A program made the position numbers and the translations under genes. This document shows positions 7,232 through 49,494 of a DNA stretch of 49,559 nt, one piece after another. This DNA comes from Acidiphilium iwatense (GTDB lineage Bacteria > Pseudomonadota > Alphaproteobacteria > Acetobacterales > Acetobacteraceae). How positions within the stretch are numbered: position 1 is the stretch's first letter; every line of letters starts with the position of its first letter. The DNA lies in NCBI RefSeq assembly GCF_021556475.1, contig NZ_JAKGBZ010000025.1, positions 1-49,559 on the forward strand, given 5' to 3'. The notes under the pieces are model-generated. The model was given only the letters and a program-made list of their open reading frames with translations, was not told the DNA's origin and ran no database searches.

Positions 7232-7235
7232 GTCA

Positions 7236-10323: not shown

Positions 10324-12347
10324 AGCGCGGTCCAGGCGAGCAGAATGACGAGGGCCAGGAATACGAAAGCCAGGTACCGCCTTATGGTGAGGAATTGCAG
10401 CCGGTTCACCCGATCCGCAATGCGGCCGACCGTGGTCACCAGCGGTGTATAGATCGCCCACCACGCCGGATCGGTCCAGCTTGAGGCGAGGCTGGCCGGC
10501 CCCAACTGACCCGGCGCGGGCATGACGACATCGTCGCGCGCTCTGAATACCACACTCGCAAACACCTGTCGGATCGGCTGGGCGAAGCCGGAGGGCGAAT
10601 ATTGGGTACTGCTCGCCACATCCCGCGCGGAAGCGTCGCTCAGCCCCTGATAGCCGCAACCCCAGAACGCTGCGCGCCGGATCACCCGCGAACCGAACCG
10701 GTGCAGTGCCAGCGCGGCGAGGCTACCGCTCACCGCGATGAAAATGAAGATCAGCAGTGGATCATAAGAGCTTCGGCTGGCGGAGACGGGAATGACGGTC
10801 AGCCAGGACAGTCCGCGCTGGGAGGGCACATGCGCGCCGAGCAGCGCCTGCGTCACTGGTGCCAGCAGATCAATAACGAAGCCCGGCAGCACGCCAGCCA
10901 CGACGCACAGTGCAGCCAGCCCGATCATCGCCGCCCGGGAGAATGCATCGGTCTCATGCGCGGCAGCGGCTTGGGCGCTGCGTGGCTTGCCGAGATAGGC
11001 GAAACCAAAGAGCCGGACGAAACAGGCGGCGGCGAAGGCGGCGGCGAGCGCCACCAGCGCGCCGACCGCGGGCACGGCGAGCTTTAATCCAAATTGCGGC
11101 AGCGCAGGGCTGAGCAGGATCGCCTGCAACAGCAGCCATTCGGAGGCGAAACCATTGAGCGGCGGCAGCGCGGCGATCGCCATGGCGGCGATCAGCATCG
11201 GCACTGTGCTCATCTTCATCCGATGAATCAGACCGCCAAGTTTCGTGAGGGCACGCTCGCCCGTCGCATGCTGAACGGCACCCGCTCCGAAGAACAACGT
11301 GCTCTTGAACAGCATGTGGTTGAATGCGTGGAACAGGGCGGCGGTAAGGGCCAGGGCTGCCGCCACCATCATCCCGTCCGCCTTGAACGCGAGCGCCAGA
11401 CCCAGCCCGACGAAGATCAGTCCGACATTTTCGATCGTGCTGTAGGCGAGGATGGTTTTGAGGTCGTCTTCCATCAGCGCATAGAGCACGCCAAGCACAG
11501 CGGTGATGCCGCCCACGATCAACACCGCCAGACCCCACCACCAGGCGGCCGGCTCCGCCAGATCGAACACGATGCGGATGAAGGCGTAGATCGCGACTTT
11601 CGTCATCACGCCGCTCATCAGCGCCGAAATATGGCTGGGTGCCGCGGGATGCGCGCGCGGCAGCCAGACATGCAGCGGAACAAGCCCGGCCTTCGAGCCG
11701 ACGCCAGCCAGCGCCAGCAGCATCACGATCCCGCCGATCCAACCGGCACGTTGCATCCCTCTCATGGCGGCGAAGGCGTAATGACCATGGGGGCCGGCCA
11801 GCAGGCCGAAGGCGAACAGCAAGACGAGCGTGCCCGCACTCGCCATCAGCAGGTAAATGATGCCGGCGCGCCGTGTCTCCTCCTGTTCATGATGCGCCAT
11901 CACCAGCGCCCAGGAAGCGAGCGACATCAACTCCCAGAAGATCAAAAAATCGTAGGCGTCGGCAGCAATCAGAACGAGGTTCATCGCGGCGAGAAACACC
12001 GGATAGAACGGCAAGATCCGCCAGGGTTCGGGTTCGTGCCGACCATAGCCGAGGGCATAGAGGCTGGCCGCCGCAGCCCCGAGATTGGTGATGACCAGAA
12101 ACACTGCCGATAGATCATTCATCCCGAAATTCATGCCGATCAGGGGCAGGCCGAGCGGCAGCGCGACAGATGGCTCTGGCGCGACGCCGAGGCCAAGCTG
12201 AACCAGTGCCGCCAGGAGTGCGGCGCCGGCGACCGCGAGCGAGCCGCCATAAACGATGATCCGCCCGGCCGGCGTGCGTCCCAGAATTGCGCCGAATCCG
12301 CCGAGCGCGAATGAGGCCAGGGCGCAGAGCAGGATGATCGGTGTCAC
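10314..12347 (-). CDS. hyfB: HyfB-like (NuoL-type) proton/ion-translocating subunit
   Basis: 677 residues and about 16 membrane helices. The central antiporter domain is recognised by GSKAGLVPLHVWLPRAHPAAPSHISALMSG, KVAIYAFIRIVFDL and TILAYSTIENVGLIFVGLG. A longer, more variable C-terminal part includes an amphipathic stretch. It is the largest pump-like subunit of the Ehr complex, and its start overlaps the upstream xre stop by ATGA. No HyfA/HyfH-type ferredoxin subunit, formate dehydrogenase or Hyp maturation gene is present nearby. Confidence 0.88.
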   Translation of the reverse strand: MTPIILLCALASFALGGFGAILGRTPAGRIIVYGGSLAVAGAALLAALVQLGLGVAPEPSVALPLGLPLIGMNFGMNDLSAVFLVITNLGAAAASLYALGYGRHEPEPWRILPFYPVFLAAMNLVLIAADAYDFLIFWELMSLASWALVMAHHEQEETRRAGIIYLLMASAGTLVLLFAFGLLAGPHGHYAFAAMRGMQRAGWIGGIVMLLALAGVGSKAGLVPLHVWLPRAHPAAPSHISALMSGVMTKVAIYAFIRIVFDLAEPAAWWWGLAVLIVGGITAVLGVLYALMEDDLKTILAYSTIENVGLIFVGLGLALAFKADGMMVAAALALTAALFHAFNHMLFKSTLFFGAGAVQHATGERALTKLGGLIHRMKMSTVPMLIAAMAIAALPPLNGFASEWLLLQAILLSPALPQFGLKLAVPAVGALVALAAAFAAACFVRLFGFAYLGKPRSAQAAAAHETDAFSRAAMIGLAALCVVAGVLPGFVIDLLAPVTQALLGAHVPSQRGLSWLTVIPVSASRSSYDPLLIFIFIAVSGSLAALALHRFGSRVIRRAAFWGCGYQGLSDASARDVASSTQYSPSGFAQPIRQVFASVVFRARDDVVMPAPGQLGPASLASSWTDPAWWAIYTPLVTTVGRIADRVNRLQFLTIRRYLAFVFLALVILLAWTALWG

Positions 12348-14330: not shown

Positions 14331-14555
14331 GTTTTTGATCGATCGATGCGCAATATGTGCTTGGCTTCCAAACGATGCGATTGCCAGCCGATTGCACGGT
14401 AGATCCGAGCGGTTCGAAACTCTCGCCCGCGAAAGTTACGCCACGAGGAGGCGGCCGGGGCGGGTGAGGTGAGATGAGGACCATTGCTCGTGCCCCTCTT
14501 GCCCAGCGAAAGCAGGAATTGTGAGCGATTACCCCACCCCGAAAACCCCCTTCGA

Positions 14556-15263
14556 TCAACAATCATTCGCATGAACGGAGATTTCTGGAATAATCCGTCG
14601 CAAGTGTGTAACAAGAGACATCTCAATGCTGATGTTTTCTGCGCTTAGCGCCGGGTCCACGCAGCCACGGCCACAAAACGGCTGAAGGACCCACCGCCCG
14701 ACGCCACTCGCCCGGAGATCGTGCGCCAGCGTCTGAAGCGCTTGTGCATCCAGCAACGCTGGATGCACGGTGGTCCGCACCTCGTATGACACGCCACTTT
14801 CGCGGAGCATCGCCAGGGCGACTCGCGCTTGCGCACCGCTCGCCTCGGAGCCAGTGATCCGAGCATAGTCGATAAACGGTGCCTTGATGTCCAACCCAAC
14901 CCACTGGAGCAATGGCAAGACCCGACCAAGACGTTTCGGCGAGACGCCGGCCGTATGCAGAGCGACCTCAAACCCCAATGAGCGAACGTCACGTATCGCC
15001 TGTTCCAGGCACCGATCCATCGTTGGCTCGCCACCACTCAAGACAACGCCATCAAGCAGACCACGTCGCTGATCGAGCCAAGCCAGCGCTTCCGACCAGC
15101 GCAGGGGAGAAGCCCCTTGGCGCGTCTGTAAATCCGCATTGTGACAATAGCGGCAGCGGAGCGGGCAGCCACGGAGAAAGAACGTCGCGGCAAGGCGTCC
15201 GGGAAAATCAAGGGTGGTGAACGGCGCCCAGCCACCGACCAGAGGTTCATCAGGCTGTGGCAT
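14556..15263 (-). CDS. nrdG: Anaerobic ribonucleotide reductase activase, radical SAM
   Basis: 235 residues. CPLRCRYCHN is the radical-SAM C-x3-C-x2-C cluster motif, near residue 35. VVLSGGEPT and VGLDIKAPF are later SAM-binding elements. The enzyme generates the glycyl radical on NrdD. The ATG at 15263 overlaps the nrdD stop (ATGCCACAGCCTGA), so translation is probably coupled. The longer open frame upstream lies within nrdD and is not needed. Length and GWAPFTTLDFPGRLAATFF match the NrdG subtype that lies downstream of nrdD in many proteobacteria. Confidence 0.9.
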   Translation of the reverse strand: MPQPDEPLVGGWAPFTTLDFPGRLAATFFLRGCPLRCRYCHNADLQTRQGASPLRWSEALAWLDQRRGLLDGVVLSGGEPTMDRCLEQAIRDVRSLGFEVALHTAGVSPKRLGRVLPLLQWVGLDIKAPFIDYARITGSEASGAQARVALAMLRESGVSYEVRTTVHPALLDAQALQTLAHDLRASGVGRWVLQPFCGRGCVDPALSAENISIEMSLVTHLRRIIPEISVHANDC

Positions 15264-17133
15264 GGCACATGGCTCTGGGTTCGACGAAAAACCGCCGTTC
15301 GGCGAATTCGCTCTGTTTGCCAATATTAAACGAGGAAACCGGACGATGATAACCCATCACACGCGTCCAGACCTCACAAGTGGGTGGCGATGCGGCCGGA
15401 TCTTCCGCGGCGCAGCGCGGACAGTGTTGATGCGCGCCTGGGAGATAGCCGTGCACCGGACAAACAGAAAAGGTCGGGGTTACCGTGAGGTAGGGTAGCT
15501 GGAAGCGCGTCAGTGCCCGCCGCACCAGGTCTCGGCAGGCCGCGGAGGAAGAGATCTGTTCGACGAGATAGAGATGCAACACTGTGCCGCCGGTATATTT
15601 ACCCTGCAGTTCATCCTGACGGGTAAGCGCCTCGAAAGGATCTTCGGTAAACCCGACGGGCAACTGTGACGAATTTGTGTAATAGGGCTTGTCCGCTGTA
15701 CCAGCCTGAAGAATTCCCGGATGTCGGCGCTGGTCTTCTTTCGCAAAGCGATAGGTGGTTCCTTCAGCTGGCGTGGCTTCAAGATTGTAGAGATGGCCGG
15801 TTTGTTCCTGGAAGCCGATGATCCTGGTCCGAATATGATCGAGCAGGTCACAGGCCATCCGATGCCCGGCGGGGGTCGTTATGTCATCCGTATCCACCGT
15901 GAAATTGCGGATCATCTCGTTGATTCCATTTACGCCGATCGTTGAAAAATGATTGCGCAGGCTTCCGAGATAGCGTTTTGAATAGGGAAATAGGCCGGCA
16001 TCGAGATACCGCCCGATCACTTGTCGCTTGATCTCCAGGCTGTCGCATGCAAGCACAAGCAACTCGTCGAGCCTTTGATAGAGACCGGAGCAATCCCCCC
16101 TGTGTCGGAAGCCGAGCCGTGCACAATTGATCGTCACGACCCCGATCGATCCGGTCTGTTCAGATGATCCGAACAGACCGTTGCCACGCTTGAGCAATTC
16201 ACGAAGGTCGAGCTGCAGTCGGCAGCACATCGAGCGCACCATATGGGGCTTGAGATCCGAATTCAGAAAATTCTGGAAATAGGGCAATCCATATTTCGCC
16301 GTCATTGCGAAGAGCCGTTCGGTGTTCTCCGAGTCCCAATCAAAATCGGCCGTGATGTTATAGGTCGGGATCGGAAAGGTGAAGACGCGGCCGTTGGCAT
16401 CACCGGCACCCATCACCTCGATATAGGCGCGGTTTATCATATCCATTTCCACCTGCAGATCGCCATAGCGGAATGGCATTTCATCGCCCCCGATCAGGGG
16501 TATCTGTTCACGGAGATCCTCGGGACATACCCAGTCAAACGTAATATTGGTAAAGGGTGTCTGGCTTCCCCAGCGGGACGGAACGTTGAGGTTGTATATG
16601 AATTCCTGGATATTCTGCCGAACCTCGGCATAGGAAAGGCCATCCTTGCGCACGAACGGCGCGAGATAGGTGTCGAAAGAACTGAATGCTTGTGCTCCGG
16701 CCCATTCGTTCTGCATTGTGCCAAGGAAATTTACCATTTGGCCGACCGCGCTTGAAAGATGTCGCGGTGGCGACGCCTCGACACGATCCGCGACGCCGTT
16801 GAAGCCTTCCACGAGCAGCGTGCGTAAAGACCAGCCAGCGCAATAGCCTGCAAGCATATCCAGATCGTGGAGATGAAGGTCAGCCTCGCGATGGGCGCGA
16901 CCGATCTCCGGCGGATAAATATGATCGAGCCAGTAATTGGCAACGAGCTTTGCCGCGCCGTGAAGAATCAATCCGCCAAGCGAATAGCTCTGGTTGGCAT
17001 TGGCCTTAACCCGCCAGTCTTCACGATCGAGGTACTCCTCAAGCGTGGCAATGGGATCGACGAGGTTTCGGGTGGCAAAACCCTCTGTTATCCGCTGGGC
17101 TAATCCGCGCCCTGCAACCGCCGTGGCATTCAT
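15250..17133 (-). CDS. nrdD: Anaerobic (class III) ribonucleoside-triphosphate reductase
   Basis: 627 residues from ATG 17133, set by a GGAGGA ribosome site 6-12 nt upstream. It makes dNTPs without oxygen using a glycyl radical. Visible features are the catalytic-loop MCCRLQLDLREL and NCARLGF in the middle, YYTNSSQLPVGFTEDPFEAL, a zinc site (CPVHGY, CPRC and a following Cys) and the radical loop RVMGYHRPV near the C terminus. The gene follows two 2OG-oxygenase genes on the same strand and precedes nrdG. The nearest promoter element seen is the FNR box at 18640, 1.5 kb upstream at the head of the run. A local promoter in 17134-17221 is possible but no clear box was found. Confidence 0.93.
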   Translation of the reverse strand: MNATAVAGRGLAQRITEGFATRNLVDPIATLEEYLDREDWRVKANANQSYSLGGLILHGAAKLVANYWLDHIYPPEIGRAHREADLHLHDLDMLAGYCAGWSLRTLLVEGFNGVADRVEASPPRHLSSAVGQMVNFLGTMQNEWAGAQAFSSFDTYLAPFVRKDGLSYAEVRQNIQEFIYNLNVPSRWGSQTPFTNITFDWVCPEDLREQIPLIGGDEMPFRYGDLQVEMDMINRAYIEVMGAGDANGRVFTFPIPTYNITADFDWDSENTERLFAMTAKYGLPYFQNFLNSDLKPHMVRSMCCRLQLDLRELLKRGNGLFGSSEQTGSIGVVTINCARLGFRHRGDCSGLYQRLDELLVLACDSLEIKRQVIGRYLDAGLFPYSKRYLGSLRNHFSTIGVNGINEMIRNFTVDTDDITTPAGHRMACDLLDHIRTRIIGFQEQTGHLYNLEATPAEGTTYRFAKEDQRRHPGILQAGTADKPYYTNSSQLPVGFTEDPFEALTRQDELQGKYTGGTVLHLYLVEQISSSAACRDLVRRALTRFQLPYLTVTPTFSVCPVHGYLPGAHQHCPRCAAEDPAASPPTCEVWTRVMGYHRPVSSFNIGKQSEFAERRFFVEPRAMCHATA

Positions 17134-17221
17134 CACAAATCCTCCGAATCGGTCAACATTTAGTAGCACGAGTCGGAATATTGCACAAGATGTAGTAATT
17201 CTGCCAGAAACCACCGCCCAC

Positions 17222-17899
17222 TCAGGCGATGCGGATCGGCCGATCGGGAAAAGCGAGTTGCTCGCGATCCCGCCAATTCGGCGCCACATAGTTGACTTCC
17301 ATGAGCCGGCGAATGCCGAGGATCGGACGCGGCTCGAAGCCGTGCCATGTATTCTCGCCGGGAACGAAGATCACACCCGAGTTGAAGTCACCAGGGGACT
17401 GGCCAACCCAGCGCTTCTCGGAATCGTAGATATCGGTACCCCATTCCTCTGTCCCTGGCCCGCTAAAGAGATAAATGACCATCGAAAATAATTTTTCTGG
17501 AATATCGCGGTGAGGTTCGAGCCAAGTGCCCTCCGTATCCTGGATATATTCAATACGCAGGAAGGCTCCAGCGACGTCGATACCGCAGGTCTCAGCCATT
17601 AATTTTGCGACGTTCGGCTTCTGCAGTGCCTCGGCGAGAACGGCACAACTGGGAAATTTGCTGCGTAGAAGCGTTGTAATGAAACAGCGGCGATCATTGT
17701 AGCTGTTACGGGTGCCGTCGGTATGACCAAGCATCGGCGGTACGATCGGTAACGCCAGGAGGCGAGCCCAAAGCGATTCAGGGAAAATATCGGTAAACAG
17801 CCAATGACGATACGGCCACTCCTGCTGTCGCGCCTGGCGGATTGACTTGCAGAAATGGTCAACAACCTCGCTGGTTTCAGGTGCCGGGGGATAAATCAC
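17222..17899 (-). CDS. 2-oxoglutarate/Fe(II)-dependent oxygenase
   Basis: 225 residues with a double-stranded beta-helix pattern. The iron ligands are H130-x-D132 (LEPHRDIPEK) and H186 (ENTWHGFEP), with R197/R198 as likely 2OG-binding arginines. It resembles small prolyl-4-hydroxylase/PhyH-like bacterial oxygenases of unknown substrate. It lies 12 nt after a second oxygenase gene of the same fold and ~90 nt before nrdD. An oxygen-consuming enzyme in a run with an oxygen-sensitive reductase is unexpected. It might act in oxygen sensing, or on a substrate only at low oxygen. Confidence 0.78.
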   Translation of the reverse strand: MIYPPAPETSEVVDHFCKSIRQARQQEWPYRHWLFTDIFPESLWARLLALPIVPPMLGHTDGTRNSYNDRRCFITTLLRSKFPSCAVLAEALQKPNVAKLMAETCGIDVAGAFLRIEYIQDTEGTWLEPHRDIPEKLFSMVIYLFSGPGTEEWGTDIYDSEKRWVGQSPGDFNSGVIFVPGENTWHGFEPRPILGIRRLMEVNYVAPNWRDREQLAFPDRPIRIA

Positions 17900-17911
17900 G
17901 TTCTGCTCCTC

Positions 17912-18586
17912 TCAGCGCGGCGCCCATTCAATGATCTTGTTGAGTATCGGGATGGGTTTGACCATGCTGCTGATGCCATGACGCCAATATTCGCGTCGGA
18001 CATACCATTCGGAATCAACGAAGCAGAGCTGAAGACTCATGCGCGGCCCTTTCTGTGGGAGGAAGCCGTGCCATGAATGGTCACAGACACGGAACATCAA
18101 CATTCGCCCGAATTCCGGCGCAAACTCGAAGGTATAGTCATCGCGGTCTGAACTGCGCAGCACGCGGAGCCGACCGCGCTCATACGGCCAGGTTCGGGTG
18201 AAGCCGAGCAGCACTGTCACAATTTTGTGTTTTGAGTCGGGATGTGCATGACCTTCGTTGTAGTGACCGGTCGTGTTGCCCATCATCACAATGACCGGCG
18301 GACTACGGCTGAGATCCATGTTGAATTTCTGCTCGACAAGTCTACGGAAGCGGTGGCTCAAAAGATCCTGAACGACCGTGCCAAAGAGCTGTCCGTATCG
18401 TAGGTTTGGAAGTCCGTAACTACCGCGGCCGGAAATGCGCGGCGCGTCTGCCAGAACCGCTTCCTTTACCGTGGCCGGCAGCGCGTGCTCGACAAAGCTA
18501 TAGTCATAAGGATCATGCTCCAGCTTTGCGGTTACGATCGCGGACTCGTCGAGCATCTGAAACGGCAGTTCGTAATCAGTCGTCAT
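17912..18586 (-). CDS. 2-oxoglutarate/Fe(II)-dependent oxygenase, first gene of nrdDG run
   Basis: 224 residues from ATG 18586; the ORF extends 7 codons further. The iron motif is H115-x-D117 in EGHAHPDSKH with H173 in DHSWHGFLP, and R182 follows. The sequence differs enough from the neighbouring oxygenase to make a recent duplication unlikely. It is the first gene leftward from the divergent FNR-box region, 54 nt from the box. The substrate is unknown. It could be a peptidyl or small-molecule hydroxylase. Confidence 0.72.
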   Translation of the reverse strand: MTTDYELPFQMLDESAIVTAKLEHDPYDYSFVEHALPATVKEAVLADAPRISGRGSYGLPNLRYGQLFGTVVQDLLSHRFRRLVEQKFNMDLSRSPPVIVMMGNTTGHYNEGHAHPDSKHKIVTVLLGFTRTWPYERGRLRVLRSSDRDDYTFEFAPEFGRMLMFRVCDHSWHGFLPQKGPRMSLQLCFVDSEWYVRREYWRHGISSMVKPIPILNKIIEWAPR

Positions 18587-18639
18587 ACTCCAGCTTCCTC
18601 CGGCCATTGGAAGAATGTGCGTGATTGCGTCGACACGCC

Positions 18640-18653
18640 TTGATCTAAATCAA
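18640..18653. promoter_or_regulatory. Perfect FNR/FixK box between the 2OG-nrdDG and ubiTUV units
   Basis: TTGATCTAAATCAA matches TTGAT-N4-ATCAA exactly. It is centred about 87 nt upstream of ubiT and 61 nt upstream of the first oxygenase gene. Either distance allows class II activation (-41.5) with a short leader. Symmetry lets one site serve both directions. Confidence 0.85.
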
Positions 18654-18732
18654 GGCGCGTCCGCCTTCCGCGTGTTCACATGATGCGGTTGTCGTTGCGG
18701 CACGGCATGGAAATACTAGGAGAAGCAGGCTC

Positions 18733-19404
18733 ATGGCGGAGACGGAATTCCCGGTTCTGCTCGCGACCAATGTGCTGGGGCTGCTCCCCGCGCCGGCTCT
18801 GACGCGTGCCACGGCTTTGCTGATGCGTCGGTTTGGCCGAACGTATCCTCGGCTGTTCCGCGCCCTCGCGGGCCACGAGCCCTGCACGATCGGTATCGAA
18901 CCGACCGATCTGGCGCATCGTTTCGTGCTCCGCTTCGGGGGAACGCCAGTGTCGCTGGTGCCGACATTGACCTTGGAGCAGCCCTTGAATGCCTGCGTAA
19001 GAGGCCGGTTGGCAACATTGGTGGGGCTGCTCGAAGGCAGACTCGATAGCGATGCGCTCTTTTTTTCCCGAGAGATCGTCATAACCGGGGAAATGGAAGC
19101 GATCGTCAGTCTGCGTAATGCCCTCGATCGCGAAACCGTCAATGTGTTCCAAGCGGCAACCGCACTGTTCGGACCGGTGGGGCATCCCGTCAGGCGGGTG
19201 GCGCTCATGCTGGAGCGGCGACTCGCCGCAGCGCATCAGCGCCTGACCATGAGGCACGAGGCGCTGCACGCGGCACGACGAGAAGAACATTCCATCGCCA
19301 CGTATTGCGCGCGGCAGGAAGCAGAGTTGCAGGCATTGAGAACGCGCATAGCCAAGATTGAAGCGCAAACCAGGCGACGGAATCCAATCGGTGCGGTGAC
19401 ATGA
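18733..19404 (+). CDS. ubiT: UbiT, SCP2-domain lipid-binding factor for O2-independent ubiquinone synthesis
   Basis: 223 residues. The SCP2 sterol-carrier fold covers the first two thirds (RFVLRFGGTPVSLVPT, GRLDSDALFFSREIVITGEME are the core). A basic, coiled C-terminal tail with repeated Arg, Glu and Gln follows. UbiT is known to bind hydrophobic quinone intermediates and is needed for anaerobic ubiquinone production. The identification is strengthened by ubiU and ubiV downstream with ATGA overlaps. The FNR box upstream fits expression without oxygen. Confidence 0.88.
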   Translation: MAETEFPVLLATNVLGLLPAPALTRATALLMRRFGRTYPRLFRALAGHEPCTIGIEPTDLAHRFVLRFGGTPVSLVPTLTLEQPLNACVRGRLATLVGLLEGRLDSDALFFSREIVITGEMEAIVSLRNALDRETVNVFQAATALFGPVGHPVRRVALMLERRLAAAHQRLTMRHEALHAARREEHSIATYCARQEAELQALRTRIAKIEAQTRRRNPIGAVT

Positions 19405-20396
19405 CGCGCTATCTCGAACTGGTCTGTCCGGCGGGCACTCCTGCCGCCTTGCGCGTTGCGGTCGACGCTGGAGCCGACACTGTCTATTGTGGCTTCCAGG
19501 ACTGCACCAACGCCCGCAACTATCCTGGCCTGAATTTCACCCGCGAAGATTTACGTGGCGGTATCGCCTACGCCCATGCCCGCAGTTGCCGCGTCTTCGT
19601 CGCAGTAAACACGTTTCCCCGTGCCGGCGACTTCGGGCCATGGCAGCGCGCGATCGATGACGCTGCTGCCTGCGGCGCAGATGCGGTTATTCTTGCCGAT
19701 CTTGGCGTGCTCGATTATGCGACGTGCCGCCATCCGAACTTGCGACGGCACCTCTCGGTGCAGGCGGCCGCAGCCAGCCCGCTCGGGATCCGATTCTACC
19801 GGGACGCCTTTGGGATCAGCCGCGTCGTGCTACCGCGCGTGCTGTCGGTCGAAGAAGTCGCGGCGTTGATCGGACAAACAGGCGTCGAGGCCGAGGTGTT
19901 CACCTTTGGCAGCCTCGGTACGATGGTGGAGGGGCGCTGCTTTCTCTCCTCGTACATGACCGGCCGCTCACCGAGCAGCGACGGTGTCTGCGCTCCGGCT
20001 GAGTGTGTCTCCTACCGTGAGGACGGCGATCGCCTGGTCTCCTGTCTCGGCGACGTCATGATCAACCGGTTCGCGAGCGATGAGCCGGCGGCCTACCCGA
20101 CCCCCTGCAAGGGTCGCTTCCTGGTACATGGCCGTCCGAGTTATCTGTTTGAGGAACCGACCGGCCTCAACGTTATTCCGCTCCTCGCGGAACTCAAGGC
20201 GGCCGGGGTAACCGCCCTGAAGATCGAGGGCCGCCAGCGCAGCCGCACCTATGTGGCCACCGTCGTCACCGCTTTCCGCCGCGTCCTCGACGCGCTCGCT
20301 GAGGGCGCGTCGCCGGCGCCGATGCCCGACGTGCTGCGCGCCGTTGCCGAAGGGGGACGCGAGACATTCGGCGCCTACGCGAAGGGGTGGCGATGA
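19401..20396 (+). CDS. ubiU: UbiU, U32-family anaerobic ubiquinone hydroxylation protein with one cluster Cys missing
   Basis: 331 residues of the U32 peptidase-like family. With UbiV it forms the O2-independent hydroxylase, each protein holding a [4Fe-4S] cluster through four cysteines. Three are present with the expected spacing: C180 (EGRC), C197 (GVC) and C236 (PTPC). The first position, SLC in E. coli UbiU as I recall it, is SLG here (Gly173). A non-canonical Cys, C202 (PAEC), might substitute. Other landmarks are DTVYCGFQDCTNARN and KIEGRQRS. The start overlaps ubiT and the stop overlaps ubiV. Confidence 0.9.
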   Translation: MTRYLELVCPAGTPAALRVAVDAGADTVYCGFQDCTNARNYPGLNFTREDLRGGIAYAHARSCRVFVAVNTFPRAGDFGPWQRAIDDAAACGADAVILADLGVLDYATCRHPNLRRHLSVQAAAASPLGIRFYRDAFGISRVVLPRVLSVEEVAALIGQTGVEAEVFTFGSLGTMVEGRCFLSSYMTGRSPSSDGVCAPAECVSYREDGDRLVSCLGDVMINRFASDEPAAYPTPCKGRFLVHGRPSYLFEEPTGLNVIPLLAELKAAGVTALKIEGRQRSRTYVATVVTAFRRVLDALAEGASPAPMPDVLRAVAEGGRETFGAYAKGWR

Positions 20397-21292
20397 GCTG
20401 TTTAACCTTGGGGCCGCTGCAGTTCCACTGGCCTGCACCACGGCGGCGAGACTTCTACGCTCGTATCGCTGACGAGGCGCCAGTCGAGTGCGTCTATCTC
20501 GGTGAGGTGGTTTGCAGCAAGCGTCTCCCTTGGTTCGAGAAAGACCTGCCGAAGATCGCCGAGCGTCTGCGCCGAGCAGGAAAGCAGGTCGTATTCTCGA
20601 CACCGGCGTTGATCATCACCGATCGTGAGGTCGCGATGATCCGCGCGCTCTGCGAGACAGGCGATCTGATCGAGATCAACGATCTCGCCTGCCTGCAACT
20701 GCTAAATGGGCAGGCATTTGTCTCCGGCCCTCTGGTAAACGTATTCAATGAAGGTACGCTCGATGTCCTTCTCCGTCTGGGTGCCATACGGGTGAACACG
20801 CCAATGGAACTATCCATCGACGCGATCGCCACGTTGGCGGCACAGAACCAAGCGGGCGAGATTGAAGTGTTCGCGTTCGGCCGCCAACCGCTGGCCATCT
20901 CACAGCGCTGCTATCACGCGCGCGCACATGATCTGCACAAGGATAACTGCCAGTTCGTCTGTGGCCAGGATGCGGATGGTCTGGCGATCGCACAGCTTGA
21001 CGGGCGTCCGCTGCTGGCGATCAACGGCACGCAGACCCTCTCGCACGGCCATGTCGCTCTGCTCGACGAACTCGCCGATCTCCAGGCAGCAGGCGTCACC
21101 CATTTCCGTCTTTCGCCTCACGCACTCGACATGGTCGAGATCGCCACACTCTACCGCGCCGTGCTCGACGGCACCTGCGATGCAGAGGAGGGCCTCACGC
21201 GCCTGCGTGAACACACCGCGCCGGTCCCGTTTGTCAATGGCTATCTGCACGGGCGCGCCGGGGTGGACTGGCAGCCAGGCCGGGCTGGATAG
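20393..21292 (+). CDS. ubiV: UbiV, U32-family partner of UbiU
   Basis: 299 residues from the ATG that overlaps the ubiU stop. The four cluster cysteines expected in UbiV are visible: VVCSKR near residue 41, ISQRCYHARAH, and NCQFVCGQD. YLGEVVCSKR and the AFGRQPLAIS element are typical of the family. With UbiU it carries out the ring hydroxylations of ubiquinone without oxygen, probably with prephenate as hydroxyl donor as proposed for the system. It is followed closely by a Rid-like gene. Confidence 0.9.
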   Translation: MSCLTLGPLQFHWPAPRRRDFYARIADEAPVECVYLGEVVCSKRLPWFEKDLPKIAERLRRAGKQVVFSTPALIITDREVAMIRALCETGDLIEINDLACLQLLNGQAFVSGPLVNVFNEGTLDVLLRLGAIRVNTPMELSIDAIATLAAQNQAGEIEVFAFGRQPLAISQRCYHARAHDLHKDNCQFVCGQDADGLAIAQLDGRPLLAINGTQTLSHGHVALLDELADLQAAGVTHFRLSPHALDMVEIATLYRAVLDGTCDAEEGLTRLREHTAPVPFVNGYLHGRAGVDWQPGRAG

Positions 21293-21356
21293 CGGAATGG
21301 CAGCGACGTTCTGGGCACCACACTTGGCGGCCATTAATCACGGGAGCATCCTGAGT

Positions 21357-22517
21357 ATGGATTGTAGCGGCAGAGTCATCACCAAAAGCTTCAAGCGGAG
21401 CACCGGCGGAAGCGAGCATTACATCATCGTCGAACCGCCTGCCGATCTCGGCCTCACCGAGCAGGTCGCCTGCCTTGAGCGACGCTATGATGAGACACGG
21501 CAGGAACTCGGTCTGCCGGCCGGCAGCGCCGTGTTTCGGCGATTATTCGTCAGCGATGCGATGAACCAGATACCCTTGCTGCGACACAGCCGCCTGACAG
21601 CGGATGAAGATGGCTCTCCTGTTGCGCTGTCTCTCATCCAGCAGCCACCCCTCTCACGAACCAAGCTTTCTCTTCTTGCCTATCACGTCAGTGGGGCACC
21701 TGATCTCTCCAAGTGCCGGCTTACGTCTCGGCATGTCGTGGTCGAGAAAAATGGCCTTGCTCATCTCTGGACAACAGGTCTCTGCCCGGCATCGGACGAT
21801 AAGCTGGTGCCTGCGACACAACAGACACGACAGATGTTCGATACTCTTATCAATACGCTCGATGGCCTCGGTGGCACGCTACGCAATAATTGCGTCCGCA
21901 CCTGGATTTACGTCAAGGACGTCGACGTATTCTATAACGACATGGTGACGAGCAGGCGTGAGCTGTTCCTTGAACAGGGCCTGTCAGCAGAGACGCATTT
22001 CATTGCCAGCACCGGCATCGAGGGTGCCTGCGCGCACCGCTTCGATATAGTAACGATGGACGCCTACTCGATCCTTGGCCTCGCACCACAACAGGTCTCC
22101 TATCTCAATGATTTCGATCATCTTTGCCCGACGAAGGACTACAACGTGACCTTCGAGCGTGGCACCCGCATCGCTTATGCCGATCGCGCCCATCTCTTTA
22201 TCTCGGGAACTGCCAGCATTGATAGCGCCGGGCAGGTTGTTCATCCCGGAAATGTGTCGCGCCAGTTCGACCGCGCACTCGATAATGTGGAGGCACTTTT
22301 GCGCGCCGGCTCGGCGGAGCTCAGTACGCTGATGCACCTCATCGTCTATCTGCGTGACCCAACCGACCATCCACGGATCAAAGCGGCATTGTCCGAGCGC
22401 TTGCCCGGCGTCCCGACGATCATTGTACAGGGTTCGGTTTGCCGGCCGGAATGGTTGGTAGAGGTCGAGGGCATGGCCATCGCCGATAACGAAGATCCGG
22501 CGCTTCCAGGTTTTTGA
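21357..22517 (+). CDS. Rid/YjgF-like protein with chorismatase (FkbO/XanB2)-like architecture
   Basis: About 386 residues with two Rid-like halves. The N-terminal ~120 residues are divergent. [21 protein letters not shown] and the ASTGIEG segment resemble the FkbO/Hyg5/XanB2 chorismatase core. The C terminus is a clear RidA fold ([41 protein letters not shown]). Chorismatases can make hydroxybenzoate from chorismate, and 4-hydroxybenzoate is the ubiquinone ring precursor, so a role in supplying the ring is an attractive inference from its place after ubiV. A simple imine-deaminase role (Rid), perhaps linked to the PLP genes that follow, is the alternative. ATG 21297, 4 nt after the ubiV stop, is an alternative start. 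Confidence 0.7.
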
Positions 22518-22621
22518 TCTTCCGAGTCTTCGCATTGCTTGGCCGGTGGATTGTCGTCACATGCGACCAGACACGAAGCACGTGTCGGTTTGCCAATAGA
22601 CACTTACCAGGAGGTCTATAC

Positions 22622-23551
22622 GTGAGCGATATGCCGACTAATCCTGCCGAGACATCACCGTTGCGACTCAAGACGGGGCTGGCCGAAATGCTCAAGGGCG
22701 GCGTCATCATGGATGTCACCACTGCAGAGCAGGCCAAGATCGCAGAGAAGGCCGGTGCAGTGGCCGTGATGGCACTCGAGCGGGTGCCCGCACAGATACG
22801 AGCCGAGGGCGGCGTCGCAAGAATGGCGTCTCCGAAAAAAATCAAGGAGATCATGGTTGCCGTTTCGATCCCGGTGATGGCAAAATGCCGGATCGGCCAT
22901 TTCGCCGAAGCGCAGGTACTTCAGGCTCTCGGCGTAGATTTCATCGATGAGTCGGAGGTTTTGACCCCGGCTGATGAAATGCATCATATCAACAAGCACG
23001 CCTTCGCGTCTCCTTTCGTCTGTGGAGCACGCAACCTCGGCGAGGCTCTGCGGCGGATTGCCGAAGGAGCCTCAATGATAAGGACGAAAGGCGAGGCCGG
23101 CACCGGCGACGTGGTGCATGCGGTCCGGCACGTCCGGCAAATCGCCAAGGATATTCGCGCTTTGACTGTTCTGCACGAGGATGAACTGTATACCGCTGCA
23201 AAGGAATTGGGGGCGCCGTACGAGTTGGTAAGATTGGTCGCCGATACCGGACGGCTGCCCGTGCCAAACTTCGCGGCCGGCGGTATCGCGACCCCTGCTG
23301 ACGCGGCGCTCGTCCGCCATCTCGGTGCAGAAGCGGTATTTGTGGGATCCGGCATCTTCATGATGGACTCACAGAATTTTGCTGACCCTGGCGAGGCACA
23401 GTCACGCGCAGAGGCAATCGTCCAGGCAACAACGCATTATGACAACCCGCAGATTCTTGCCGAGATCAGCGAATCCTGCCTCGGAGCCATACGTGGCCTT
23501 GCTGCGTCTACTTTGGAAGAGGGAGCGTTGCTCCAGACACGAGGCTGGTAG
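22622..23551 (+). CDS. pdxS: Pyridoxal 5'-phosphate synthase, synthase subunit
   Basis: 309 residues from GTG 22622, supported by AGGAGG at 22609-22614 with 7-nt spacing. The PdxS TIM barrel is unmistakable: [75 protein letters not shown]. It condenses ribose 5-phosphate, glyceraldehyde 3-phosphate and ammonia (from PdxT) to PLP directly. The route does not need the O2-dependent PdxH oxidase used in the DXP-dependent pathway common in Alphaproteobacteria. That matches the O2-independent theme of the preceding ubi genes. Confidence 0.95.
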
Positions 23552-23554
23552 ATC

Positions 23555-24220
23555 ATGCCGATAACGGGATTGGCCGAAATACCTCTGAAAATCGGCGTTG
23601 TGGCATTGCAGGGCGATTACGCGGCACATGCGGAGGCTTTGCGCAGTAGTGACACCGAGATCGTGTCGGTCCGCGAGACAGCAGAATTGGTTGATCTGGA
23701 CGGCTTGGTGATTCCGGGTGGGGAATCGACCGCGCTCCTCAAGCTGCTCACGCGCGAAAATATGTTTGAGGCCGTGCGGGAGTTTGCTGCGGCCAAACCG
23801 GTGTTCGGTACCTGTGCCGGCTGCATTATCCTCGCCAAAGAGGTTCTGCCGCCGCCGCAGCAAAGCCTTGCAGTTTTGGATATAATAATACAGCGCAACG
23901 CTTACGGCCGACAGATCGAATCCCGTGTTGCCATGGGAGATTGCGCTTTCTCCGGTGGGGGGCTCGAAATGGTCTTCATCCGCGCGCCGCGTATCGTGAG
24001 GGCAGGCTCCCGCGTGGAAATTCTGGCACGGTATGGAGGTTTCCCCACCTTGGTTCGTCAGGGCAACATACTCGCAGCCACCTTCCACCCTGAATTATCC
24101 GCGGATCGCCGGATCCACCGCTTTTTTTGCGCCATGATCCGCGGTGGACAGCCTTGTCTAAGTCCAGGTGTGCAAATGGGGAACTTGGGCAGAAGGCATA
24201 ACGAGACGCACGAGCGATAA
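23555..24220 (+). CDS. pdxT: Pyridoxal 5'-phosphate synthase, glutaminase subunit
   Basis: 221 residues: the class I glutamine amidotransferase partner of PdxS, 3 nt downstream. The oxyanion loop PGGEST, the nucleophile in GTCAGCI and the FHPEL His/Glu pair are all present, so the triad is intact. A ~30-residue C-terminal extension (GGQPCLSPGVQMGN...) goes beyond the usual ~190-200 residues and may be run-on into new sequence. ATG 23555 is plausible, though the family normally starts nearer LKIGVVALQGD (residue 11), so a later start is possible. Confidence 0.93.
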   Translation: MPITGLAEIPLKIGVVALQGDYAAHAEALRSSDTEIVSVRETAELVDLDGLVIPGGESTALLKLLTRENMFEAVREFAAAKPVFGTCAGCIILAKEVLPPPQQSLAVLDIIIQRNAYGRQIESRVAMGDCAFSGGGLEMVFIRAPRIVRAGSRVEILARYGGFPTLVRQGNILAATFHPELSADRRIHRFFCAMIRGGQPCLSPGVQMGNLGRRHNETHER

Positions 24221-28053: not shown

Positions 28054-28415
28054 ATGCGCTCCGATTAATCGCAAGCAGAGGTATTTTGAGATCGTACAGC
28101 GTCCGTACCAGATTGGAGGGCGAGCTTAGGCGCTGTTGGACAATTACCGCTCCAGAACGGGTCCGCTTGGCGTGATTGTGTAATTCCACTCTCCGTGGAA
28201 TTCGTGGCGGAGGATTTTGACGGTTTTGAGTTCTTCGTCGGGCACCTTCACGCCTGCGGGATAGATGTTGGGATCAAGTTCGCAGCGGACCGTTAGGCCG
28301 GCTTTGGTCGTCGTGGCGGCGATGAGTTGGACGATCACCTGATGACTGACGAGCGGCTTGCCGCGCCAATTTCCGGTGATGAACGAAAATAGCCGATGCT
28401 CGATCTTGTTCCACT

Positions 28416-30413
28416 GTGTGCCTTGCCAAGGCGCATCGATGTCGTGGGTGCAAACCCCACCCGGCAACTCTCGCTCCAGCCGGAAGCCCCCGGAGCGGAT
28501 CAGGAGGCGACGAATGGTCTGAAGCACTTCGGGAAAAGGTCCCTTTTGGGGATCAACGGGCCATACGGGCCGCAGCAAAAGCGAACATTATTGAGGCCTC
28601 GAAATGATCAATGTGAGCGCCGACCCACCAGTGGAATGGGGAGGCCGCCGCCATCAGGCAAGCGAGCGAGATACGCCCTTGATGGGCTCACCGGGGTAAA
28701 GATGGCAGCACGTATGGCAGAACATCAGTGTGCAACAAGGGAAGTCTGTCCTGGTGACCACGGTTGGCAAACCGACTGGTCAACGGCGACCCCGTGAGGG
28801 TCAGCGTCGGCCGGGGCAGATGGCGGATGGGCCCGTAGTACCGATGACGCCGGGTAATGCCGGTCGAGGAAAGGGGCCCTGACCTGCGAAAGGTGAATCA
28901 AGTGATGAGACCTCGGAGATTGGCCAAAAGCCTAACAACTCCGCTCGAAAGGGTTCGGAAATTACAGACCTCACTACAGGCGAAAGCTAAGGCTGAACCA
29001 GCGTATCGTTTCTATTCCCTTTGGGACAAAGTCTGTCGGGATGACGTCATCGAAGAAGCCTACCGGGCATGTCGTCGTAACGGCGGCTCGGCAGGTGTCG
29101 ATGGGGTGAGTTTCGCCCAGATCGATTCCTACGGAACGAAACAATGGCTGGAAAAGTTGCGTCAAGAGCTGCGCGACGGCGAATATCGTCCGCAGCCCTT
29201 GCTGCGTGTTTGGATTCCAAAGAGTAACGGAAGTCGGCGTCCGCTCGGCATTCCTTGTATTCTCGACCGTGTGGTCGAGATGGCGGTTTTGCTGGTAGTG
29301 GGACCGATCTTGGAGGCGGATCTACTGGGTAACCAGTATGGATTCCGTCCGGCGATGGACGCCAAAATGGCGGTTCGCAAAGCCTTCTGGCACATCACGG
29401 CCCATGGACGAGCGGAGGTGGTGGACGCTGATCTCAGCGACTACTTCACCTCGATTCCGCACGGCCCCTTGATGCGCTGCGTGAGCCGGCGAATTACGGA
29501 CGGGAAACTCCTCTCCGTAATCAAAACCTGGCTCACGGCACCGGTAATCGAGCGTGACCAGCGCACGACCCGATGCACGACGGAGGCAAAGGACCGGCAT
29601 CGGGGAACCCCCCAGGGCTCTCCGATTTCACCTTTGCTGGCGAATCTCTATTTCCGTCGCTTCCTCCTGGCCTGGGAAGCGTTCGGTCACCGCAAGCGAC
29701 TCGACGCCCACGTCGTCAACTACGCCGATGACCTCGTCATCTGCTGCCGACCCGGAAACGGACCGGCAGCACTGGCGACGATGCGGCAACTGATGACGAG
29801 GCTCGGACTGACGGTGAACGAAGCCAAGACGCAACTGGTGCGACTCCCCGAGGGAAACTTCGATTTCCTAGGCTATTCCATCAGTTGTTTCTATGGCAAA
29901 GACGGCGTGCCTTTTATCGGCACGGTCCCGTCTCGGAAATCCGTCCACCGACTACTCCAACGAATCCACGACGCGACAACGCCATACAAGCATGCCGAAA
30001 GTCCAGAACTACGGGTCGCAGCAATCAATTCGCTGCCCCGCGGCTGGGCTGCGTACTTCAACCAGGGACCGGTTCTCCGGGTCTACAAAGTTGTGCGCTG
30101 GTACACCCAACGGCGTTTTCAACGCTGGTTGACACGACGAAGCGGACAAGCGGGCACCGGATATCGCCAATATCCGGATGAGTATCTCTACGAGACTCTC
30201 GGCCTCTATGCCTTACCGCTACGCCGCGCTGACCTGCCGAGCACGAAGGCCCAATGACGCAGGTGAAAGCTGGATGCGGGTGATCTGCACGTCCAGTTTG
30301 ACGAGCGGCGACTGGAAACGGAGCTATGCCAGTTCGGATTGAGGGGGCGACGCGAAAGCGCCGCCGATAACCCACCGGAAGGCTAACGCCACCGCGCCAG
30401 TCGTCGACTCTAC
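28416..30413 (+). mobile_element. Group II intron, 1998 bp, with RT ORF
   Basis: Boundaries come from the transposase frame. The 5' end is GTGTG (28416), matching the group II GUGYG consensus, and the 3' end is ...CTCTAC (30413), matching AY. The 5' exon ends TTGTTCCACT and the 3' exon begins TGCTCGTGCC. Domain V lies around 30268-30299, with an AGC-started helix and its partner in GTCCAGTTT. Domain VI follows, with a long tail of about 115 nt to the 3' end. The RT ORF is in domain IV. The ribozyme 5' part occupies 28416-28856. Confidence 0.88.
28857..30257 (+). CDS. ltrA: Group II intron reverse transcriptase/maturase
   Basis: 466 residues. RT motifs are in order: GGSAGVDGVSF (RT1 region), PKSNGSRRPLGIP (RT2), GFRPAMDAKMAV, VVDADLSDYFTSIPH with two catalytic Asp, GTPQGSPISPLLANLYF (RT4) and NYADDLVICC (residues 288-297, YADD catalytic box). 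LGYSISCFYG and a group II maturase-specific X domain (LPRGWAAYFNQG, KVVRWYTQRRFQRWLTRR) follow. No H-N-H endonuclease domain is present. All catalytic residues look intact, so the intron could be active. ATG 28905 is an alternative start. Confidence 0.93.
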   Translation: MPVEERGPDLRKVNQVMRPRRLAKSLTTPLERVRKLQTSLQAKAKAEPAYRFYSLWDKVCRDDVIEEAYRACRRNGGSAGVDGVSFAQIDSYGTKQWLEKLRQELRDGEYRPQPLLRVWIPKSNGSRRPLGIPCILDRVVEMAVLLVVGPILEADLLGNQYGFRPAMDAKMAVRKAFWHITAHGRAEVVDADLSDYFTSIPHGPLMRCVSRRITDGKLLSVIKTWLTAPVIERDQRTTRCTTEAKDRHRGTPQGSPISPLLANLYFRRFLLAWEAFGHRKRLDAHVVNYADDLVICCRPGNGPAALATMRQLMTRLGLTVNEAKTQLVRLPEGNFDFLGYSISCFYGKDGVPFIGTVPSRKSVHRLLQRIHDATTPYKHAESPELRVAAINSLPRGWAAYFNQGPVLRVYKVVRWYTQRRFQRWLTRRSGQAGTGYRQYPDEYLYETLGLYALPLRRADLPSTKAQ

Positions 30414-31449: not shown

Positions 31450-31520
31450 AGCAATCACCTCGCCAGGACGCGGCCAAGCGCCTGCCACCAGTCAGGATTG
31501 GGCATCGCCGTGGCCGGGAA
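31450..31520. repeat. Degenerate direct repeat of methyltransferase 5' region
   Basis: About 71 nt match 26938-27009 on the same strand with a few substitutions and one deletion, covering the codons for the first ~28 residues of the methyltransferase. The copy has no open frame of its own. The two copies bracket the response-regulator, intron and ISAzo13 region. Confidence 0.75.
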
Positions 31521-31656
31521 CTTCAACCCAATAGGTTCAGCATAACCGTCTGGGACACCTTTGATGAAATCCTCGCAGCCTGAGCCGCCGCCCGAAACTC
31601 ACTGATGGCCGACCAACCACGCATCCAATCAATTACCCAACGCACATGGGCGTCAG

Positions 31657-46653: not shown

Positions 46654-46667
46654 TTGATCAGGATCAA
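46654..46667. promoter_or_regulatory. Perfect FNR/FixK box upstream of the Cyc2-like gene
   Basis: TTGATCAGGATCAA matches the consensus exactly, centred about 62 nt before the ATG at 46722. Together with the box at 43707 it places the oxidase and its likely electron-donor genes in the same oxygen-responsive set. Confidence 0.82.
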
Positions 46668-48089: not shown

Positions 48090-48134
48090 AACGATTTGCG
48101 CGACAGTCACAGCACATTCAACAGGAGGCTATCG

Positions 48135-48536
48135 ATGTCGAAACGTATCGTAATCCCCATCCTGGCCGCCGTCGCGACGGCATGTTTCACTGCGGTTGCG
48201 CTGGCGGGCGCCATGCCCGCCGGCAATGCCGCCAAGGGCAAGACAATTTTCAGCGCGCAATGCGCCGCCTGCCACAGCGTCGCCGCCGGCCAGAACGGCA
48301 TCGGCCCGAGCCTTTACGGCGTCTATGGTAAACCGGCCGCGAGCGTGAAGGGTTTCCAGTTCTCGCCCGCGCTGAAATCCGCCCATATCGTCTGGACCGC
48401 GGCCGCGCTCGACAAATTCCTCGCCAATCCACAGGCCGATGTCCCCGGCACCAAGATGCCCTACATGGGCATGCCGAACGCCGCGAACCGCGCGGACGTG
48501 ATCGCTTATCTGGCGACCTTGAGTGATAAAAAATAA
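48135..48536 (+). CDS. Periplasmic class I cytochrome c
   Basis: 133 residues from ATG 48135, chosen for AGGAGG at 48121-48126. A signal peptide spans residues ~1-25. One haem is bound at C43AAC46H47, and the Met ligand is likely the one in GTKMPYMGM near residue 105. The YGKPAASVKGFQFSPALKSA and VIAYLATLS pattern fits class I (c2-like) cytochromes. It follows the Cyc2-like gene directly and is the natural shuttle to the ba3 oxidase subunit II. Confidence 0.92.
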   Translation: MSKRIVIPILAAVATACFTAVALAGAMPAGNAAKGKTIFSAQCAACHSVAAGQNGIGPSLYGVYGKPAASVKGFQFSPALKSAHIVWTAAALDKFLANPQADVPGTKMPYMGMPNAANRADVIAYLATLSDKK

Positions 48537-49008: not shown

Positions 49009-49494
49009 ATGCCTGAAATCGGCTCGTTAGCAGAAGTTCGAAGCGCTGCGGAAATCTGCAACGCCTGCCGGTTTTGTGATAGCTATTGTGCAGTATTTCC
49101 GGCGATGGAACTACAGCGCGCATTTTCTGATGGCGATCTCCGTTACCTTGCTTATCTTTGTCATAATTGCCGGGGCTGCTACTACGCTTGTCAAGCGGCT
49201 CCGGAGCCAATCGACGTCAATTTACCCCGGAGTTTCGCGGAGTTGAGAGACGAGAGCCACGCACACTACGTTTGGCCCGCCCTATTTGCATCCTTGTTTC
49301 GCCGTAACGGCTTGGTCGTATCTGGTACTTGCTTGATCAGCATCACGCTGGTGTTTTTAGTCACCTTATTGCCGGCTACCCCAGGGTCGCTTACTCATGC
49401 CCTGAGTGGTCCAGGCGCCTTCTATCAGGTTATCCCCCTCATGTCTCCCCTCATTTTGAGGCCGCAGGCGCCATTTAGCCGAAGAATCGATTGA
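49009..49494 (+). pseudogene. Broken TcuB-like tricarballylate-utilisation protein
   Basis: 161 residues. The start CNACRFCDSYCAVFPAME and YLCHNCRGCYYACQAAPEP carry the two [4Fe-4S] cysteine sets of TcuB. FAELRDESHAHYVWPALFASLFRRNG and the membrane helix LVVSGTCLISITLVFLVTLLP follow. TcuB is usually well over 300 residues. Here the frame departs after GAFYQVIP into unrelated residues and stops, so it is truncated or frameshifted at about 49440. DNA after 49494 is not recognised. The base composition is lower in GC than the oxidase genes. Confidence 0.72.

Follow-up and report, generated by a model that had tools for sequence, protein, structure and literature searches.

A candidate FNR-switched, mobile module of oxygen-independent biosynthesis in Acidiphilium

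Why should genes for making ubiquinone, pyridoxal 5'-phosphate (PLP), and deoxynucleotides without oxygen share a single FNR box with genes that look oxygen-using? The question is raised by a 49,559-nucleotide contig of Acidiphilium iwatense (NZ_JAKGBZ010000025.1; hereafter the window). Two divergent gene runs leave a perfect FNR box at 18640-18653: leftward oxyA, oxyB, nrdD, and nrdG; rightward ubiT, ubiU, ubiV, a chorismatase-like gene here called chorRid, pdxS, and pdxT. A sequence-only reading had proposed all of these genes and their divergence from that box, and every one was recovered in its place (Table 1).

As a whole, the island is best explained as an "anoxia kit" of Acidiphilium that is switched by FNR and moves horizontally, a reading to which a probability of about 0.72 is given. 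The narrower statement, that a predicted FNR-marked module of oxygen-independent biosynthesis is present and is mobile in relatives, is well supported by comparison of sequences. On falling oxygen, a host FNR-type regulator would bind the central box and start the two operons. UbiT, UbiU, and UbiV would then take the place of the ring hydroxylases that use oxygen in ubiquinone synthesis; chorRid would turn chorismate into a hydroxybenzoate, most likely for UbiA; PdxS and PdxT would make PLP without the PdxH oxidase; and NrdD and NrdG would make deoxynucleotides without oxygen. The two oxygenase-like proteins would probably take a substrate connected with chorRid and do their work in micro-oxia, at oxygen levels that already leave FNR active. 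The set could help strains live by Fe(III) reduction at little or no oxygen.

A box between two operons

The promoter region carries the motif TTGAT-N4-ATCAA, a predicted site, and the genome encodes an FNR-type protein with N-terminal cysteines, which together indicate an FNR regulon. The box at the island exceeds chance: allowing up to one mismatch, the window holds eight sites, whereas 100 shuffles averaged 1.3 and never exceeded 7. The whole genome has ten perfect sites, four of them on the window contig, C75, whose share of the genome is 1.2% (binomial 4e-6, post hoc). Three others share contig C151 (5.4 kb), and C89, C93, and C120 have a single site each; among these last, two of three lie inside predicted reading frames and one is only 66 bases from a contig end. 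The genome's ten HTH_Crp_2 matches include only one over the Pfam cut-off, and its gene lies on C151. The encoded protein has an N-terminal C-x2-C-x7-C array and an ETVSR helix, which we take to be features of oxygen-sensing FNR. Sharing C151 with this regulator is a gene, HemN-like by eye, that starts directly behind one of the three perfect boxes (L175:444-3614). Within the window, another perfect box (38319-38332) has a small frame (37924-38313) on one side and a DUF1127 gene (38431-38709) on the other.

The box is kept in relatives (genomes, contigs, and loci are numbered with G, C, and L). A strict box stands at most 300 bases upstream of ubiT in nine of the 11 ubiT-led operons examined: those of the window; of the plasmids pACMV3 and pACRY03; of G002, G005, and G009; and of L008, L009, and L010. 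It is absent from L011 and L014; L013, where no ubiT was found, was left out, and L012, led by nrdD, has a box with one mismatch. Ahead of oxyA, or of chorRid, oxyA, and oxyB together, the box is strict in the window, L008, both plasmids, and G026; it has one mismatch in G069, G046, G005, and G002, and two in G157 and G009; G113 has none. Across 30 operon starts, a strict box was found at 14 and first-order shuffles gave 0; the starts are not independent, and the boxes of the window and of L008 each count for two of the 14.

Three oxygen-independent pathways

UbiT, UbiU, and UbiV exceed the cut-offs of their NCBIfam equivalogs and are encoded by adjoining genes; NrdD and NrdG pass equivalog cut-offs as a class III reductase and its activase; and the adjoining pdxS and pdxT encode proteins that pass NF003215 and TIGR03800 for PLP synthase. 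PdxS falls 0.45 bits short of a second PdxS model, TIGR00343 (438 against 438.45). CxxxCxxC in NrdG and a C-terminal RVMGY in NrdD are visible, presumably the motifs of those proteins. The runs are compact: ubiT and ubiU overlap by four bases, ubiU and ubiV by ten, and nrdG overlaps the end and stop of nrdD; chorRid follows ubiV after four bases, provided that the ATG at 21297 is its start; and oxyB and nrdD are 88 bases apart. Improved starts for oxyA (18586), nrdD (17133), and nrdG (15263) were chosen by eye.

The UbiTUV pathway of Escherichia coli and Pseudomonas uses the same three families, likewise from adjoining genes, with FNR control shown in E. coli (PMC10470549; PMC6747719). Unlike those operons, the one described here is collinear with chorRid and pdxST and is plasmid-borne in relatives.

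PdxH, the sole proxy used for the oxygen-using PLP route, occurs in 12 of 13 Acidiphilium genomes and PdxS in four (G000, G005, G008, and G009). PdxST therefore looks like an addition, not a replacement. Class II NrdJ gave no match over cut-off in the window's genome, which leaves nrdDG as its only oxygen-independent reductase among the two classes searched.

Distribution and plasmids

The survey covered 120 genomes, the window's own (G000) included; 13 belong to the genus, several as drafts (G002 is 78% complete). A class-wide set of 385 genomes overlaps them, with G000 and G113 common to the two sets. UbiU was counted in 16 of the 120 (leaving out six of 22 far below cut-off and keeping G050, 2 bits under), full-length chorRid in eight (leaving out 42 of 50 matching genomes with partial Rid domains, E 3.5e-11 or weaker), an oxyA orthologue in nine (leaving out 50 of 59 with distant paralogues, at most 39% identical), and NrdD of the island type in seven (leaving out three of ten under cut-off). 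Within the genus, UbiU, chorRid, and oxyA occur in the same five genomes (G000, G002, G005, G008, and G009), and the remaining eight have no UbiU, chorRid, or oxyA orthologue; this patchy presence is new here. NrdD is found in three of the 13 (G000, G002, and G008).

The plasmid location of the set in relatives is also new. ubiTUV, chorRid, and pdxST lie on pACMV3 of A. multivorum (typed mobilizable) and on pACRY03 of A. cryptum JF-5 (typed conjugative); contig C2 of G008 was taken, by content, as pACMV3 of A. multivorum AIU301. Both plasmids also carry nrdDG, a second chorRid (Rid2) with oxyA and oxyB, a c-type cytochrome gene, a Cyc2-like gene, and a gene annotated tcuB. Since the island genes and these cytochromes recur together on Acidiphilium plasmids, the set can apparently pass between strains. 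The row ubiTUV-chorRid-pdxST is collinear, with a strict FNR box, in the window, both plasmids, G005, and G009. Read over the start of its record, pACRY03 has the order oxyB, oxyA, a split Rid2, tcuB, cytochrome, Cyc2-like gene, transposase, box, ubiTUV, chorRid, pdxST, and nrdDG, the last following directly in one row. Window positions 18614-24161 are 89% identical to pACRY03, and positions 14472-17175 are 91% identical in the opposite orientation relative to ubiTUV. On pACMV3, insertion elements lie between nrdDG and ubiTUV.

Among plasmid records, 155 match UbiV at E<=1e-40, mostly rhizobial or from Azospirillum, and 29 match NrdD at 1e-30; chorRid finds only three at more than 38% identity (pACMV3, pACRY03, and CP084173). 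Plasmid-borne ubiTUV is not rare; the compact combination is the distinctive part. Transmission of ubiTUV has been described as generally vertical, with one transfer event captured (PMC11707229).

CP084173 is labelled Acidithiobacillus ferrooxidans. Over a 49.7-kb stretch compared with pACRY03, its four longest blocks (17.1, 11.1, 8.8, and 4.4 kb) are 99.9-100% identical and shorter blocks 94-100%. As proof of transfer between classes it was not accepted, because the DNA may come from Acidiphilium growing in a mixed culture; being nearly identical to pACRY03, it was not counted separately. This near-copy apart, none of the genomes and plasmid records searched showed the complete set beyond Acidiphilium.

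Does the island act as one module?

The sequence-only reading took the island for one regulated, oxygen-free module. The gene families, the box, and the neighbourhoods on plasmids and in metagenome-assembled genomes (MAGs) lend this comparative support; the mobility of nrdDG, the oxygenase-like genes in first place, and the restricted distribution do not fit it. The observations that weigh against one module concern, in turn, gene arrangement, the chemistry of chorRid, and the oxygenase-like pair.

The first is that the neighbourhood, whose conservation in relatives was the check set by that reading, holds within Acidiphilium plasmids and MAGs, box included, and not generally in the class. At ten UbiU loci (up to 10 kb on each side, several cut by contig ends), chorRid is next in four (L005-L008) and pdxST in two (L006 and L007; L005 stops at a contig end); oxyAB is divergent in one (L008); nrdD and nrdG flank ubiTUV in one (L012); and five have none of these. 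L005, L006, and L007 are counted as the same genomes as G002:C131, G005:C26, and G009:C97. At L012 (7492-12505), from a distant alphaproteobacterial MAG, the row is nrdD-ubiT-ubiU-ubiV-nrdG. The combination thus belongs to Acidiphilium and its close kin, with a single incomplete counterpart at a greater distance.

The nrdDG pair is the loosest part. It switches side of ubiTUV between replicons, and was not found in two of the five UbiU-bearing genus genomes (the drafts G005 and G009). Of the six nrdD starts examined, not one is preceded by its own strict box (L012, with one mismatch, included), and all six are among the 16 starts without one. NrdJ is over cut-off in G004, G008, and G009; the last two bear the module, so nrdDG is not strictly needed there. 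The plasmid copies may, moreover, be partly decaying: the Cyc2-like gene of pACMV3 is in two frames, and Rid2 of both plasmids is annotated as two frames split at about the same place (L134:42955-43912 and L138:46222-47263). Finally, no plasmid replication family was found among the 50 window frames scanned, and the contig ends share no exact overlap of 20-299 bases that would make it a circle.

Might these genes be independent anaerobic acquisitions, neighbours by chance and each working alone? The shifting side of nrdDG and its absence from G005 and G009 would fit, as would the many plasmids with ubiTUV. Alphaproteobacterial ubiTUV occur in anaerobic contexts elsewhere: as ubiXDTUV in Hyphomicrobium denitrificans (PMC12423496), and beside nitrogen-oxide genes on Azospirillum and Leisingera plasmids. 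Unlike Acidiphilium, one stretch each of the Leisingera and Azospirillum plasmids has no Rid, 2-oxoglutarate (2OG) oxygenase, pdxST, or nrdDG annotated. Outside the genus, the association of nrdD with UbiU is not significant (Fisher 0.36). Chance does not readily explain the five collinear, box-led rows, the direct succession of nrdDG on pACRY03, or the row at L012; and outside the genus, too, nrdD occurs with chorRid (two of three, Fisher 0.003, relatedness uncorrected). A merely accidental neighbourhood is judged improbable, and the module remains the preferred reading.

The second set of objections concerns chorRid. The protein scores 49 bits with the chorismatase model TIGR04444, whose curated cut-off is 325, and is therefore not assigned to that family. 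Of the 42 PDB sequences that its profile matched, the top one was a small Rid protein (2dyy, E 3e-15), as were most of the remaining matches; Hyg5 (5ag3, E 2e-12, and 5a3k) and FkbO (4bps, E 5e-11) matched too. chorRid Glu389, Cys382, Gly304, and Gly240 align with Hyg5 Glu334, Cys327, Gly240, and Gly173 (hand-counted in the profile alignment, with an assumed shift of 9 from Nat-hyg5 numbering). All four are invariant in the ten aligned sequences, including those from Parabacteroides and a deltaproteobacterium. In Nat-hyg5 the corresponding Glu is catalytic, and the Gly, Gly, and Cys are typical of the 3-hydroxybenzoate-forming subfamily (PMC7170507). chorRid carries both the catalytic Glu and the subfamily residues, and these appear to favour 3-hydroxybenzoate over 4-hydroxybenzoate as the product; in E. 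coli, 4-hydroxybenzoate is what anaerobic ubiquinone is made from (PMC6747719). With the FkbO, Hyg5, and XanB2 chorismatases chorRid shares a similar length and a C-terminal Rid domain as well as these residues. Unlike them, it is far under TIGR04444 and is linked with FNR boxes and with a pair of genes for 2OG oxygenase-like proteins.

A hydroxybenzoate source for ubiquinone is nevertheless the best guess for its role. UbiC (PF04345) was found in two of the 120 genomes and in none of the genus, for which reason chorRid most likely feeds UbiA. Its position directly behind ubiV, in the window, L008, pACMV3, pACRY03, G002 (cut by a contig end), G005, and G009, also favours this. Genus members lacking the module likewise gave no UbiC match, which means that the genus has another source of 4-hydroxybenzoate, and chorRid homologues of 35-38% identity in Parabacteroides and the deltaproteobacterium stand beside other genes. 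The idea of chorRid as a general UbiC substitute of Alphaproteobacteria was rejected: with UbiC in two and full-length chorRid in eight of 120 genomes, most must have another source. On the Parabacteroides plasmid (L135:9279-11924), the homologue lies between a 235-residue protein without assignment and a hemerythrin, behind a di-heme oxidoreductase; no 2OG oxygenase was found among the neighbours scanned. One Bacteroides plasmid stretch examined is sparsely annotated.

chorRid, oxyA, and oxyB are a co-inherited trio, which is new here. All eight genomes of the 120 with full-length chorRid have oxyA, which occurs in nine (Fisher 1e-11, and 2e-5 outside the genus; relatedness uncorrected), and seven of the eight have UbiU. 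Class-wide, chorRid (E<=1e-30) and oxyA (E<=1e-50) occur in the same three genomes, two of them also in the 120. The three genes adjoin in G026, G046, G113, and G157 (where oxyB appears as two pieces), and as Rid2 in G008; in G002, G005, and G009, oxyAB and chorRid are on different contigs. G026 (7% contamination) has chorRid and oxyAB without a UbiU match. Conceivably, then, the trio forms a micro-oxic pathway of its own, leading to a hydroxylated benzoate derivative that would serve as redox mediator, chelator, or signal, and stands near ubiTUV only as a fellow FNR target. Its closer tie to oxyA than to UbiU argues for this, as do the rows without ubiTUV in the stretches read of G026 and G157; the Rid2 genes standing, with strict FNR boxes of their own, in front of oxyA-oxyB on both plasmids; and the three residues of the 3-hydroxybenzoate type. 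The seven cases of chorRid directly after ubiV suggest a ubiquinone link instead. A separate pathway of this kind is a tentative alternative, somewhat short of an even chance and compatible with the module for the other genes. For chorRid itself, its place behind ubiV and the lack of UbiC in the genus on one side, and its residues and the G026 trio on the other, leave a ubiquinone role and a separate product about evenly balanced.

The third set concerns the first two genes on the nrdD side of the box, which look oxygen-using, with iron-site residues intact. OxyA is over the Pfam gathering threshold for the 2OG-Fe(II) oxygenase superfamily; OxyB, with no Pfam or NCBIfam match, joins it through alignment to OxyA (hhalign E 7e-7). 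HxD...H...R, with the distal Arg, is invariant in ten aligned OxyA and 11 aligned OxyB sequences. The OxyA profile matches the prolyl-4-hydroxylase-like oxygenases 9ei6 (E 7.5e-8) and 9blq (E 1.1e-6), with HxD-H-R kept in OxyA; oxyA and oxyB differ from these in coming as a pair and lying behind FNR boxes. For OxyB, a fold predicted from the single sequence had a pLDDT (predicted local distance difference test) score of 37 and was not used for a fold search. In several genera, enzymes of oxygenase type thus lie behind what looks like an anaerobic switch, which is at odds with pure anoxia. E. coli ubiUV is driven by FNR from 0.1% oxygen downwards (PMC10470549); FNR being already active at that level, a micro-oxic role of the oxygenases is possible. 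That they belong with nrdD alone was also considered, and was weakened by the presence of chorRid in eight of the nine oxyA genomes and by the position of nrdDG at the opposite end of the block on pACRY03; in its favour, oxyA occurs in five of seven nrdD genomes (Fisher 1e-5), and nrdD of G046 adjoins chorRid and oxyBA.

The set might instead serve micro-oxic growth rather than anoxia, with FNR-type control in a microaerophile and with the oxygenases and a heme-copper oxidase as partners. Two oxygenase-like genes at the head of the left operon, and an oxidase with a CuA-like subunit II motif behind the perfect FNR box at 43707, speak for it. Class III reductases, however, are destroyed by oxygen, and UbiTUV and NrdD would gain little under constant oxygen. 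We regard this as rather unlikely. The oxidase region (43707-46603) encodes a subunit II with a cytochrome c domain as well as the CuA-like motif, and a subunit I that resembles SoxB weakly, far under cut-off; the oxidase is possibly micro-oxic.

The boldest version is a long shot: that a conjugative plasmid makes a microaerophile an anaerobe in one step, supplying oxygen-free ubiquinone, PLP, and deoxynucleotides, with chorRid filling the UbiC step, the Cyc2-like protein as an Fe(III) conduit, and high-affinity 2OG oxygenases hydroxylating the quinone ring or benzoate in micro-oxia, so that ubiquinone would be covered at every oxygen level. Within the preferred module, the oxygenase and chorismatase part is the more novel half.

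Two further oxygenase-like loci were seen. At L053:9975-11325 (G014), a distant oxyA paralogue precedes an oxyB homologue (48%), apparently adjoining cbb3-oxidase assembly genes, as judged by eye. In the window, a 783-residue protein (35353-37704) has a 2OG-FeII_Oxy_3 domain at residues 142-229 and is otherwise without assignment.

Other parts of the window

The Cyc2-like protein of the window has no Pfam or NCBIfam match; its likeness to Cyc2 was assigned by eye. It resembles Cyc2 of Acetobacteraceae and Acidithiobacillus in its N-terminal CxxCH, similar size, and place beside a c-type cytochrome, an arrangement given for Cyc2 (PMC10715153), and differs in matching no family model. Positions 48987-49437 are 90% identical in DNA to pACRY03.

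Elsewhere, a Complex-I/hydrogenase-4-like operon (5312-12347) encodes a 49-kDa subunit (5825-7273) lacking a CxxC motif, and thus probably a nickel site. A globin-like gene clusters with genes for a YtfE-type Fe-S repair protein, a ferredoxin, and a HemJ-like protein (40025-42943). An ISAZ013-type transposase, apparently interrupted by a group II intron reverse transcriptase, adjoins a TOTE-type primase-helicase (28144-34479).

Table 1. Features of the island and of the cytochrome region, in window coordinates
Feature	Position	Strand	Details
nrdG, NrdG2-type activase	14556..15263	-	TIGR02495 192.8 bits, cut-off 131.15
nrdD, class III ribonucleotide reductase, 627 aa	15250..17133	-	NF006126 (PRK08270) 1042 bits, cut-off 548
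oxyB, second 2OG-Fe(II) oxygenase-like protein, 225 aa	17222..17899	-	oxyA paralogue; hhalign to oxyA
oxyA, 2OG-Fe(II) oxygenase-like, 224 aa	17912..18586	-	PF13640 (2OG-FeII_Oxy_3) 32.4 bits, gathering 27
FNR box TTGATCTAAATCAA	18640..18653		perfect; common to both divergent operons, between their start codons
ubiT	18733..19404	+	NF047962 58.2 bits, cut-off 46.9
ubiU	19401..20396	+	NF047963 489.6 bits, cut-off 440
ubiV	20387..21292	+	NF047965 365.7 bits, cut-off 275
chorRid, chorismatase-like, Rid superfamily, up to 406 aa	21297..22517	+	start uncertain, 21297 or 21357
pdxS	22622..23551	+	NF003215 487 bits, cut-off 395; start by eye, GTG 22622 or ATG 22631
pdxT	23555..24220	+	TIGR03800 207 bits, cut-off 105.55
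FNR box	46654..46667		perfect; ahead of outer-membrane cytochrome-like gene
Cyc2-like (by eye) protein, 455 aa	46722..48089	+	N-terminal CxxCH; plasmid homologues 70-77%, near ubiT
c-type cytochrome	48096..48536	+	adjoins Cyc2-like gene on plasmids too
tcuB-like gene start	49009..49494	+	frame stops 65 bases short of contig end; plasmid counterpart annotated tcuB

Significance

In the open-access literature searched, which leaves out most subscription journals and all bioRxiv preprints, no title or abstract start among the papers listed describes this combination. Other transferred genes, nuo among them, have been proposed as a possible cause of facultative anaerobic ability in Acidiphilium (PMC7677001). 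Strain JF-5, unlike two other strains, reduced Fe(III) even anaerobically, and growth was said to need a little oxygen (PMC8790237). For Hyphomicrobium denitrificans, the authors describe themselves as currently unable to explain the source of 4-hydroxybenzoate (PMC12423496).

Against this background, the predicted module, present in five of 13 genus genomes and on a JF-5 plasmid, is a concrete candidate for what may let some Acidiphilium strains use Fe(III) when oxygen is very scarce. It is also one more instance of a mobile operon for making ubiquinone without oxygen. chorRid, behind ubiV, is a candidate source of 4-hydroxybenzoate for one alphaproteobacterial lineage without UbiC; and an oxygenase-like pair under an apparent anaerobic switch calls for explanation.

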